64,000 bases of DNA, from NCBI RefSeq assembly GCF_019880225.1, contig NZ_CP082284.1, positions 2,046,001-2,110,000 of the forward strand, read 5' to 3'. Position 1 is the stretch's first letter. Each line of letters opens with the position of its first letter. Source of the DNA: Halobaculum rubrum (GTDB taxonomy: Archaea > Halobacteriota > Halobacteria > Halobacteriales > Haloferacaceae). The notes beneath the pieces were generated by a model. The model searched no databases. It was not told the origin of the DNA and saw only the letters and a list, made by a program, of their open reading frames with translations. Below are positions 45,262 through 50,363 of this stretch, piece by piece. The translations under genes and the position numbers were made by a program.

Positions 45262-45516
45262 TCAGCCGTCCCCTTCGGACTGTCCGGGCTCGCCGACGGC
45301 CTCCACCGGGAGGACGTTGTTGAGGTCGGCGTACAGGTCGTCGGGCGAATCGAACGTCTCGCCGGGGCACTCGGCGACGTACTCGCCGAGGTTCCCGTCG
45401 CCGTCGGAGAACCGGAGCGTCACGTCCGAGAACCGCGCCGCCGCGTGATCGCGGGCGACGGGGTAGGTCAACTCCTCGAACAACGACTCCACCCGCGACA
45501 GCCTGACGGTGGTCAT
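45262..45516 (-). CDS. DUF5789 family protein
   Basis: The protein has 84 residues matching the haloarchaeal DUF5789 pattern: VRLSRVESLFEELTYPVARD, then FSDVTLRFSDGDGNLGEYVA, and the near-invariant end LPVEAVGEPGQSEGDG. ATG 45516 is chosen since an earlier in-frame ATG adds residues the family lacks. Function unknown. Confidence 0.85.
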   Translation of the reverse strand: MTTVRLSRVESLFEELTYPVARDHAAARFSDVTLRFSDGDGNLGEYVAECPGETFDSPDDLYADLNNVLPVEAVGEPGQSEGDG

Positions 45517-45680
45517 GTGCGCCGATGCTACGTCGCCGAAGGATATCACTGTAGTGTCGGATTCCGGTCGTTCGGTGTTCGATCGGACACTCGCCCGCGG
45601 TGCGATCGACGAGCCGCCCCCCAGGACGCGGTTACGCTGGGCAGTTTAGCGGACGGGACCCGTCGCTACGTACGGACCGG

Positions 45681-46697
45681 CTACTCCGTACTGAACTCGA
45701 CACCGGTGATCTCGAATCGTGCGCCGCCGTCCGGCTGTTCCGTGACCTGTATGCTCCAATGATGGCCGGTGACGATCTGTTGGACGATACTCAGCCCGAA
45801 TCCGGTCCCTCTGTCGGTAGTGGTATATCCCGTCTCGAAGACACGTTCGCGCTTGTCTTGCGGGATCCCTGGACCGTCGTCCGCAACATAGAACCCGTCG
45901 GAAACAGTATCGATAGTCACGTGCGCATCCGATCCCGCGTGTTCGACCGCGTTTCGAAAGAGGTTCTCGAACAGTTGCTGTAGACGCGTCTCATCGGCCA
46001 CGACCCGTGGATCTCCGTCGGGCGCGTGTAAAACCGCTTCCGGGGTATCCACGTTACGCCACGCCTCTTCGGCGACGGCCGGTATCGAAACCGGCGCCGT
46101 CTCGCCCACCTCGCTGTCGCTCTGGGCGAGTTCCAACAGTTCGGTGATCAGTACATCCATCCGATCGAGCGCGTTGTCGACAAGCCGCAGCTCGTCCCGA
46201 CTGATGTCCTCCCGGAGAACGTCGAGATAGCCCTGAGCGACGTTCAACGGGTTCCGAAGGTCGTGGGAGACCACGCTGGCGAAACTTTCGAGCCGTTCGT
46301 TCTGACGCATGATCTCCCGTTCCCTGGCTCTCCGTTCGGAGATCTCTTTGATCGTTCCGAAGTGATAGGGTGTACCATCGATCGAGCGCTGCGTTGTGAC
46401 CGTCGCGACGGGTATCTCCCGATCGTTATACTTGTGTACTGTTTCGGCCGTCCGTGTCTCGTCGTCATCGAACGAGTCCCAGTACGAATCGAACCTGCTG
46501 GCTTCGATCTCCGGAGTGATCTCCCACAGGGTTTTTCCAACCAACTCCTCCGGAGGGACATCGAACAGATCAGCGTACGACTGATTAACGTAGATGTATC
46601 GTCCATCCCGTCCGTAGATCCCGACGCCGACGCCGACCGATTCGACCATTTCGGCGAGAAACTCGGGCGAGAGATCCACCGGAGAACCGGAGTCCAT
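45681..46697 (-). CDS. PAS-domain sensor histidine kinase
   Basis: The protein has 338 residues and no membrane segment. A PAS domain (about residues 15-125, VGVGIYGRDGRYIYVNQSYA) is followed by HisKA with the phospho-histidine in VVSHDLRNPLNVAQGYLDVL and a complete ATPase: N box FRNAVEHAG, G1 DDGPGIP and G2 GTGFGLSIV. ATG 46697 is favoured by a TTTTTAAC about 30 bases upstream. It should sense a cytoplasmic ligand or redox state; no response regulator is adjacent. It is the only kinase of this three-gene run that is intact. Confidence 0.92.
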   Translation of the reverse strand: MDSGSPVDLSPEFLAEMVESVGVGVGIYGRDGRYIYVNQSYADLFDVPPEELVGKTLWEITPEIEASRFDSYWDSFDDDETRTAETVHKYNDREIPVATVTTQRSIDGTPYHFGTIKEISERRAREREIMRQNERLESFASVVSHDLRNPLNVAQGYLDVLREDISRDELRLVDNALDRMDVLITELLELAQSDSEVGETAPVSIPAVAEEAWRNVDTPEAVLHAPDGDPRVVADETRLQQLFENLFRNAVEHAGSDAHVTIDTVSDGFYVADDGPGIPQDKRERVFETGYTTTDRGTGFGLSIVQQIVTGHHWSIQVTEQPDGGARFEITGVEFSTE

Positions 46698-46995
46698 GTG
46701 CTGTGGACTACGTGATCCAATAGTTAAAAACACCACCAGTGATCGTCCACGACTGTCGGGCGACTCCAGTATTCAACGCCACGGGTGAACTCGACGCCGT
46801 GTTTTCCGATCCCCTCTTGGGAAGACGTACTGAACCGGCGACGGCCCGGAACGACCTGCGACGTTCTGGTCCCGTCGAGGGCTCCGTTGACACCCCTGCT
46901 ACTGAGCGGAGAAGAGACGCATGCGTTCCACTACAGTCGGGCGAGGACCAAATGACACGCATAACTGATCCGCTACCGACACGGCGGAGAGACGA

Positions 46996-48684
46996 TCAGG
47001 TCGTGATGACGATCCGAACGCCGCGTTGATACTCGGGATCGACTGTGATGTCCCATCCCTGGGCATCGACGAGCGTCCGAGCGACCGGAAGCAACATTCC
47101 CGTTTTCGCGTCCGGCACCGCTTGCCCATAGGTGAACGCGGCTTCGACCTGCTCACTCGAGATGGGGGTTCCGTCGTCGGTTATACTGAGCACGCTGTCC
47201 CGCTGACTCACTTCGATCCGCGTCGCTCCGTTCGCTATCGCGAAATCGAACAGCTTCTCGAACAGGCGCTGCAATCGGTTCGTGTCGGCTTCGATCGTGT
47301 CCGCGTCGATACATAGCTCGCACGTGTCCCCCGCTACAGAGGCGAACGCGTGGGTCGCGATCCGCTCGATGTCGGCGCTGTCTTGCGGGTCGACTGACCG
47401 GCCGAGCTGTGCCAACATCGCTAGATCGGACACGAGGGTTCCCATCCGTTCCGTCATTCGGCCGGCCGTCTCGAGGCTCTCTACCGCGGATCCGGTCTCG
47501 CTCGTGGAGAGTCCGGACTGCGCAAGATCGATGTGCCCCTGCATGACATTGAGCGTGTTTCTGAGCTCGTGGGTGATCGCTTCCGCCAGGTCGTCCAACT
47601 GTGACTCGTGGCGTTCGATCTCGTCACGCTGCTGGATGAACTTCGAGATATCGGTGAACACTAACGCCTGTCCGAGAACCGTCTGGCCAGCGGTGAGTTG
47701 CGGTGCTGAAAGCAAGTAGTGCCGTGTGCCACCGGCGACTGTTGTCGTTATCCGCTTCGGAGTCTCGACCGGGAGATAGTCGGCGACCTGCGGTGAAACC
47801 GTGGGTAGTCCCTTCCCAGTGGAACCGGCGAGTTCGGGAAACAGGCGGGTCGCAGGAGCGTTCACATCGCGGATGATATCGTCCCTGTCAAGCAGAAGGA
47901 CGGCTTGATCGAGCTCGTCGATCAGCTGCTCGCGCCCGAACGCGCGAACGCGGATGAACGTGCCGTCGGCGACGTATAACACGCCGAGTGCGAACAGCCC
48001 CACGCCGACCGGCTCGTAGTTGAGTGTGAGGATCACGTCTCGGCCGAGAAAGCCGATCAGATCGAGGACGACTGGAAGCCCTGCGATCCCGACCAGAAAT
48101 GCCAACCGGCTGGTCGCGTACTCGGAGTTCCTGAACAGGTCGAACAGCAGATAGAACCCGACCGCGGCGAGAGCGTACGCCAGCACAGTCACGACCCAGT
48201 GCATCGCCCCGAACTGGATACGGAGATGCGGAAACGGGCTCGTCGCGTAGGCCGTTGTGAAATAGAGGCCATGAATCGGGCTCGTGATCTTGATACTGAC
48301 GATCGCTCCGAACACCGCGAGACCTGCTATCCGGAAGAGCCGCCGACGGTGGTACGATCTGCCGGCGTACGCCGAACAGAAGTACAGCCACGCTCCGACG
48401 GTAGCCAATCCGACGATGAGCCCGAGAATATAGAACACGATCTTGTTTTCAGGTGCGGGAGCAACGAGGCGACCGGCTTGGAAGGTCGCCCACAAGCCAC
48501 TGAACGCGAGTAAGGCGGTGAGCCCCCATCGGGTTTGACCTCCTCCACGCCGTGAACGACGTGGAATCCCACCACAGGATTCAGGCGGTCGTCGCCCTTC
48601 GGTTCCAACCCGCACTCGGAGGGAACCAGCGACACACTGGGGGAACTCTCGTTTGTTTCCCTCGGAGGGCTGTGGCGCGGTCAA
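46996..48684 (-). pseudogene. 7TM sensor histidine kinase, 5'-truncated and degenerate
   Basis: The kinase-like part covers about 46996-48537: six membrane helices (TALLAFSGLWATFQAGRLVA onward) of a seven-helix receptor, a PAS domain, and HisKA with ITHELRNTLNVMQGHIDLA. The first helix of the 7TM domain is missing: the frame upstream reads through an IS-like hairpin remnant and has no good start at the junction. The ATPase is eroded: the N-box region reads KLFDFAIANGATRI, without the usual Asn, G1 reads DDGTPIS and the G2 glycines are gone. Most likely a decaying gene, although the frame is still open. Confidence 0.7.
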
Positions 48685-48871
48685 GCACGCCCCATCGGAA
48701 TCCGTGTCATTGCCGTGTGAACCACCGCTGGTTCACCTCTCCTTGTGGTTCGGGGACGGCATCTCACCGATTCCGTAGCAGTCTCAGTATGATGCGCCAC
48801 CAACATAACTTTCCCGACGAACGAGTCGAGTGTCCGCTCGACCCCCGCCTGAAGACGGGAGTATGCGCTCG
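48541..48871 (-). mobile_element. IS200/IS605-like remnant between two broken kinase genes
   Basis: On the minus strand a hairpin CCACGTCG-TTCA-CGGCGTGG (48564-48545) followed by AGGAGGTCAA closely resembles the right-end hairpin of haloarchaeal TnpB (IS200/IS605-type) elements. At the other edge CCCGTCTTCAGGCGGGG (about 48858-48842) is a second such hairpin. Between them, about 300 bases hold fragments of coding character but no full tnpA or tnpB. The remnant's edges coincide with the truncated ends of both neighbouring kinase genes. Confidence 0.55.
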
Positions 48872-50113
48872 TCACTCTATCACGGCGGCCTGATCCCGGA
48901 TCGTTTTGATCGACGCCTGCCGTGCTTCCGCGTCCAGTTCCTCCGTTTCCAACAGTTCCGCGTGCCCGTCGATCACGTTCAGGGCGTTCCGCAGATTGTG
49001 TCGCAACACCCGATTGAGCACGTCGAGCGTTTGTGTCGTGAGCGTCTGTTCGGTGATGTCCTGTTCGATCGCCACGAACTGCGTTATCGTCCCGTGCTCG
49101 TCCGTGACGGGGACGATCTTCTGTCTGACTTCGAATAGCTCCCCGTGTTTGGTCTGGTTCGTCAGTTCGGCCTCCCAGATCTCGCCGGCCGTGATCCGAT
49201 CCCAGAGTTCCGCATAGAACGCCGCGTCTTGGTGTCCGGATCTGAGGATACGCGGGGTGAGTCCGATCGCCTCGTCGGCCGAATACCCGGTGATCCGTTC
49301 GAACGCGGGGTTGACGTACTCGATCGTTCCGTCGGGGTCGGTGACGAAAATGGCTTTCTCCGACTCCTTCGCCTGTTCCCGAAAGAGCGTGAGATCCTGT
49401 TCGAACCGTTTTTCGGCGGTCACGTCCTGCTGATAGCCGAGGTAGTTGGTGACGGTCCCCGCATCGGATCGGATCGGGACGATCGTGACACGGTTCCAGA
49501 ACATCGTGCCGTCCTTCCGGTAGTTCCGGAGTTCGACGGTGACGGGCTCTTCGGCCTCGATCGCGGCTCGCATCCGTGCGACCGGATCCTCGTGCGTGGC
49601 GTCACCCTGCAGAAACCGGCAGTTCCGACCGAGAATCTCATCGCGGGCGTAGCCGGTCTGTTCACAGAACCCGTCGTTGACGTATATGAGCGGGTTGTCC
49701 CGTTGGGACGGGTCGGAGATCGTGATCCCGATCGGGGCCTCGTCCATCGCTCTGTCATGGAGCAGGTGGCTCGCCGGCGAGTCGGCCACACCCGTCGGAA
49801 GCACCGTACTCCGGACGTGCCGGGAGCCATCCCACTCGATCAGCGAACTCACTACGATGCCACGTTGCGGCTGATCGGTGGCCGTCCGGAACTCGACGGC
49901 AAGCCCGAGCACGGGCGCGTCCTCGTTTTCCACCCGTGCAACCTGCTCACGGAACGAGGAACAGTACTCCGGCACAACGATATCCGCCAGCGAAGCCCCC
50001 CGAAGCTGCTCTCGTGATTCTGCCCCAACGAGTGTACAGAACGTGGGGTCCGCATAGACGATCTCCATGTCGGAGTGAACGAAAAATGAGTCCGGCAGGG
50101 CGGTCGGGTGCAC
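48872..50113 (-). CDS. LOV/PAS sensor kinase lacking its ATPase domain
   Basis: The protein has 413 residues. An N-terminal PAS-like region (1-115) is followed by a LOV domain (about 122-235) with the flavin motif GRNCRFLQG and adduct cysteine C165. A second PAS (about 250-360) and a HisKA helix with H372 in LRHNLRNALNVIDGHAELLE follow. It then stops at residue 413 just where the ATP-binding domain should begin, exactly at the edge of the IS-like remnant. It may still sense blue light and be phosphorylated in trans, but it cannot be a kinase by itself. GTG start at 50113. Confidence 0.82.
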   Translation of the reverse strand: MHPTALPDSFFVHSDMEIVYADPTFCTLVGAESREQLRGASLADIVVPEYCSSFREQVARVENEDAPVLGLAVEFRTATDQPQRGIVVSSLIEWDGSRHVRSTVLPTGVADSPASHLLHDRAMDEAPIGITISDPSQRDNPLIYVNDGFCEQTGYARDEILGRNCRFLQGDATHEDPVARMRAAIEAEEPVTVELRNYRKDGTMFWNRVTIVPIRSDAGTVTNYLGYQQDVTAEKRFEQDLTLFREQAKESEKAIFVTDPDGTIEYVNPAFERITGYSADEAIGLTPRILRSGHQDAAFYAELWDRITAGEIWEAELTNQTKHGELFEVRQKIVPVTDEHGTITQFVAIEQDITEQTLTTQTLDVLNRVLRHNLRNALNVIDGHAELLETEELDAEARQASIKTIRDQAAVIE

Positions 50114-50363
50114 ACTGGGAATCGCTGCTCGACAAAAGAGAAACTTGTGGACAATTGTCGTTCATCGGACAAATCGACATCGTTCGGACCGCTCCCGGCC
50201 GGTCTGTGGCAGTTGTCTTCGGATACGATACCTCCCGAGGAGGCGGTCGTTCCCGTACAGACCACTCAGTGGTCCGTATCCTACGGTGCGACTCCCGGTA
50301 GAGACAGCCTGCCACCTGGATTGGAACCGGACCGCGGAGGAGACTCGCCTCCGCTGCCGCGGC

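Follow-up and report, generated by a model that had tools for sequence, protein, structure and literature searches.

A PATE element between two truncated sensor kinases of Halobaculum rubrum and its probable part in joining them

In a window of 64,000 nucleotides from the Halobaculum rubrum genome (3.06 Mb, 2 contigs), which is the whole stretch of DNA analysed here, two different sensor kinase genes are cut off at the two edges of a 344-bp mobile element, and this element probably caused the deletion or rearrangement that joined them. A preliminary description of the same DNA had placed an IS-like remnant between two broken kinases. The placement holds and the spacer is related to insertion sequences, with the ends of an IS200/IS605 element that carries tnpA and tnpB; judged by its sequence, however, it is a complete palindrome-associated, transposase-free element (PATE) of IS200/IS605 origin with both ends, rather than a remnant, and the edges first proposed (48541-48871) are refined to the slightly larger interval 48535-48878. 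Events of this kind are known, and the present one is instructive in that it offers evidence, at the resolution of single bases, for the ability of a small non-autonomous IS200/IS605-type element to unite two different genes. The features of the locus are listed in Table 1.

Table 1. Positions of the kinase genes, the element and its parts in the window
Feature	Position	Strand	Basis or remarks
Truncated LOV/PAS sensor kinase ORF, 413 aa	48872..50113	minus	Three PAS-type stretches, then HisKA cut inside the domain
Target tetranucleotide TGAT, left junction	48879..48882	minus	Within LOV kinase codons GTG-AT; empty site ends in TGAT
Complete PATE (IS200/IS605-type), 344 bp, by sequence	48535..48878	minus	12 full-length copies, 78-83% identical, in other haloarchaea
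Left-end near-terminal palindrome CCCGTCTTCAGGCGGG	48844..48859	minus	Sequence; folding
Right-end near-terminal palindrome CCACGTCGTTCACGGCGTGG	48545..48564	minus	Sequence; folding; compensatory changes in 5/9 pairs
Part of the PATE with conserved RNA structure; its 3' end is omega-RNA-like	48535..48767	minus	65 pairs; 97.7% of cells paired; 72 cells changed on both sides
7TM sensor histidine-kinase-like gene without TM1	46996..48534	minus	Pfam HisKA_7TM 22-210/224; homologue alignment
Intact PAS-HisKA-HATPase kinase	45681..46736	minus	Pfam; GC 0.58; same lineage-specific low-GC block

Read on the minus strand from high to low coordinates, the LOV/PAS kinase ORF is followed by the spacer, the 7TM kinase and the intact PAS kinase, and the element shares one orientation with the two genes that it separates. 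None of the three kinases is found between the 95-aa ORF (45262-45549) and the enoyl-CoA hydratase-like gene (50364) in nine congeners, and the kinase block has a GC content of 0.58-0.62 against 0.68 for the window, so the block is a lineage-specific acquisition. In the same congeners (L113-L121) the interval 45550-50363 corresponds to nothing, to 0.9 kb, to 1.7 kb of low-GC DNA, or to 2.4-2.6 kb with a permease-like gene, and it may be an insertion hotspot whose contents differ from one congener to the next. A 7TM homologue in tandem downstream was seen at none of the seven LOV-homologue loci examined. The comparison of synteny that had been proposed as a check thus supports acquisition within this lineage and does not decide between the possible histories of the joint.

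The LOV kinase gene is broken within the HisKA domain; the preliminary description had placed its end after HisKA. Pfam recognised the PAS domains; of the 66 positions of HisKA it matched 6-47 only, and it gave no HATPase. All six homologues compared (68-74% identity; from Natronosalvus, a Natronorubrum bangense plasmid, Natronomonas, the halophilic archaeon SHRA6, a Halorubrum MAG and Halopenitus) run on through a complete HATPase, extending approximately 165-185 residues past the break in the window. The bases derived from the kinase end with ...GCCGTGAT, the last of them at 48879; the AGAGTGA that follows is element sequence, and hence the stop codon of the ORF (TGA, 48872-48874, just within the element) is supplied by the element. 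The missing half was not found elsewhere in the genome, where only paralogues of 39% identity or less were present. Faster evolution of the fragment, as in the decay of a pseudogene, was considered and rejected: of the 165 positions that do not vary among the six homologues it departs from 10, and the homologues themselves, each left out in turn, depart from 10-21. From its domain content, the protein may still be able to sense; its HisKA is incomplete and its ATP-binding domain is missing.

On the other side of the element, homology to 7TM kinases begins at 48534, the very next base, at the threonine of an (Asp)-Thr-Arg motif, and the HisKA_7TM match starts at position 22 of the profile. All 51 aligned homologues have approximately 34 or more additional open-frame residues upstream, including the first hydrophobic helix. 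The earlier claim that this kinase lacks its first helix at the edge of the element is therefore confirmed, and the domain content suggests that the protein has lost TM1. The reading frame stays open for approximately 50 codons into the element (48535-48684), with TTG and possible GTG starts, so that translation of the shortened kinase could begin there.

It had also been proposed that the 7TM gene lost its ATP-site residues after the break, and this claim does not survive comparison with its relatives. In the window copy LFEKLFDFAI, TDDGTPI and KTGMLLPV stand in place of the canonical N-box Asn and the glycine-rich G1 and G2, so the N-box Asn and the G1 and G2 glycines of a functional histidine kinase are absent. 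The same degeneration is present in the nearest homologues (L033, L134 and L135) and, across several genera, in most members of the wider subfamily with the H-box RHELLNTLQI, and canonical ATP-site motifs are limited to more distant members (e.g. L044, L045, L047-L052, L056 and L057). The phosphoacceptor His is retained throughout these relatives. Being common to the subfamily across haloarchaea, the degeneration is older than the break; to read it as a sign of decay is tempting, and is corrected here. The degenerate group comprises the window gene together with L033, L034, L036-L038 and L134-L160, all with the H-box His kept. Matches to the subfamily at E <= 1e-110 occur in 58 of the 391 genomes of the class, and by its sequences it looks like a widespread and conserved family of pseudo-kinases.

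The element is present once in its own genome and matches sequences in 200 of the 391 class genomes scanned, about a dozen of these copies covering the full or nearly full length of the query at 78-83% identity; copies were also found on plasmids, and no similar element was found in phage records. All 13 aligned copies have TGATA or TGATG directly before the left end, and the right end closes with GGAGGAGGTCAA. Inside the element these copies are conserved at about 0.8-1.0; past its edges, which are those at which homology to the kinases stops, the value is 0.3-0.5, and a chance coincidence is therefore implausible. At 344 bp the element is too short for a transposase, and no tnpA or tnpB match was obtained in the window using the proteins of the Halorubrum salinarum plasmid pHAR01. 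Its palindromes are near-terminal without terminal inverted repeats, the repeat search giving one 15-nt non-terminal inverted pair only. IS605-type ends are indicated by the tnpA+tnpB insertion sequence L161, which shares both ends and the target, and mobility of the family is seen in other copies, from an occupied and empty site pair and from the differing flanks of full-length copies.

The exact limits of the element were taken from that pair. When the copy in Halorubrum ezzemoulense is compared with the empty site on H. salinarum pHAR01, the inserted copy is flanked by TTGAT and TAGCTG and no bases are duplicated, so that absence of target duplication is seen for the family in one pair involving another copy, and the element and its TGAT target in the window have the limits given in Table 1. 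An empty site for Halobaculum roseum/magnesiiphilum ends on the left at TGAT and diverges over approximately 40 bp on the right, and the Halorubrum pair was used alone. The H. ezzemoulense PATE (L162 2506-2850) splits a hypothetical gene that is uninterrupted in H. salinarum pHAR01 (L169 position 774); the family can therefore insert into coding sequence.

In the LOV gene the target is native, because the intact homologue L099, which reads GCAGTGATGGAG at the codons of the left-junction TGAT, has GTGATG there. Exactly at the 7TM break, the codon is GAT, with ACN next, in 10 of 20 intact homologues, and the window gene starts right after this Asp codon. The exact TGAT is absent at this point from all of the homologues listed; the 7TM ancestor may have had it, for which only a T as third base of the preceding codon would be needed. 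Both ends of the element thus look like true insertion junctions, the left one in one kinase and the right one in another.

We give about an even chance to an origin by homologous recombination between two PATE copies of the same orientation, one in each kinase, with deletion of the DNA between them. One copy would have entered the LOV kinase after the TGAT in its Ala-Val-Met/Ile stretch, and the other would have entered the 7TM kinase behind the Asp codon GAT of its Asp-Thr-Arg motif; recombination between them would have left a single hybrid copy and removed approximately 165-185 LOV codons, any intergenic DNA and approximately 34-50 N-terminal 7TM codons. The recombination step, the size of the deletion and the former adjacency of the two kinases are all parts of this reconstruction that we infer. 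It is favoured because it explains both junctions by known processes. Homology to each kinase ends exactly at an end of the element, the TGAT target is backed by the TTGAT/TAGCTG pair and by all 13 aligned copies, and the intact relatives have GTGATG (L099) and GAT-ACN (10 of 20) at the two breaks. The common orientation of the element and both genes, the longer proteins in 6/6 close LOV and 51/51 7TM homologues, and the absence of the missing LOV half from the rest of the genome (paralogues at 39% or less) also agree with it, and there are precedents in the element-bounded indels of Haloquadratum (PMC3119063) and in recombination between haloarchaeal IS copies (PMC10544981). Against it, the genome holds a single copy, so that the ancestor with two is unseen; none of the seven LOV-homologue loci has the 7TM homologue in tandem; the 7TM ancestor's TGAT is a reconstruction that no listed homologue matches exactly; and two co-oriented insertions in neighbouring genes ask much of an element that is present in few copies per genome. 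The preliminary description had suggested two recombining IS copies, and the junctions have the character that it predicted; the recombination itself is no more than the likeliest route, given the one genomic copy, the lack of tandem kinases in the relatives examined and a one-ended transposition that would give the same product.

Such a one-ended (adjacent-deletion) route would start from one PATE, in the LOV gene: TnpA acting in trans would have cleaved its right end and joined it 3' of a TGAT in the 7TM gene, with deletion of the DNA between. This would need one insertion only, would yield exactly the junctions seen (TGAT/LE in LOV, RE/ACCC in 7TM) and could draw on the TnpA-type (Y1_Tnp) gene present in the genome. 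That gene, however, is the only one for TnpA found in the genome and adjoins a different right-end sequence, GGAGGATGTCA, and we know of no well-documented adjacent deletion by an IS200/IS605 element; we regard this route as rather unlikely. Somewhat less probable again is that the two fragments were joined before the PATE arrived, for instance by a short-homology deletion at a shared GAT/TGAT or as the incoming block was put together. Microhomology could have come from the TGAT-like bases of both genes, and rearrangement during acquisition is plausible for a lineage-specific insert of low GC, yet the joint would have had to fall by chance on the target tetranucleotide and then to receive a separate insertion exactly there.

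Recombination may instead have been ectopic, between PATE copies on different replicons or at distant loci, so that the two kinases met by translocation or plasmid integration and not by a local deletion. The occurrence of PATE copies on plasmids and the lack of tandem neighbours among the homologues of the two kinases at the loci examined fit this reading, but neither a reciprocal product nor the missing LOV half was found in the genome, and we think it improbable. That nothing is broken, and both proteins naturally end and begin at the element, is scarcely credible: archaeal HK-like proteins with HisKA and no HATPase do exist (PMC5847659), but all close homologues of both kinases are longer and the protein ends coincide with the element ends, which refutes natural ends for the nearest homologues examined.

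The right two-thirds of the element appears to encode a structured RNA with strong covariation. In an alignment (A1) of its right 233 bases in 23 copies (the window and 22 other PATE copies), the consensus fold shows two-sided changes at 13 pairs, and 97.7% of its cells are paired, compared with approximately 36-50% for slid partners, so that a conserved RNA structure ends at the right end of the PATE. An omega-RNA-like RNA is likely there. The Rfam family HgcC matches 48522-48629 at 29.5 bits against a cut-off of 50, a sub-threshold score that does not place the RNA in the family; sub-threshold HgcC matches also occur at the right ends of other PATEs, and an equal score at the tnpB 3' end of L161. 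For the 5' helices of the RNA no Rfam family reached threshold, and a literature search for HgcC together with TnpB found no paper. Near another PATE copy (approximately 1 kb or less away), L070 2432-2655 matches the sot0042 RNA at a sub-threshold 59.1 bits (cut-off 88). A passage of PMC10544981, citing Gomes-Filho 2015, describes a PATE that is active as a non-coding RNA in haloarchaea. It is conceivable, and in our view very doubtful, that the omega-RNA-like RNA of the element, guided by the adjacent 7TM sequence and acting with TnpB in trans, could cleave alleles that are still intact and thereby drive or fix kinase rearrangements, leaving the ATP-less LOV sensor and the TM1-less 7TM protein as working non-enzymatic partners.

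The PATE class was defined in Haloquadratum walsbyi, where indels bounded by mobile elements were also noted (PMC3119063). The window element resembles those PATEs in having near-terminal palindromes and no terminal inverted repeats, no target duplication, no room for a transposase and IS605-like ends. Compared by description, its family differs in its TGAT target and in carrying a conserved structured RNA within a body of approximately 340-350 bp, and the window element differs in standing between two different truncated genes. With the tnpA+tnpB element of H. salinarum pHAR01 (L161) it shares the left end (92% over 48 nt), the right end (82% over 84 nt), the TGATA context and the closing GGAGGAGGTCAA, whereas L161 is approximately 1.84 kb long with both genes and the window element has neither. 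Homologous recombination between copies of ISHla1 in Halorubrum lacusprofundi loses or moves the DNA between them (PMC10544981); there, unlike here, the element bears a transposase and copies that are 100% identical remain, whereas the window has a single PATE and a second copy that is only postulated. Census papers list 'incomplete' histidine kinases, and the joining of genes by an element is one way in which such kinases can arise. Like the archaeal HK-like proteins with HisKA and no HATPase (PMC5847659), the truncated LOV kinase retains PAS domains and the HisKA His without a HATPase; unlike them, it took its architecture from an element junction that lies inside HisKA.
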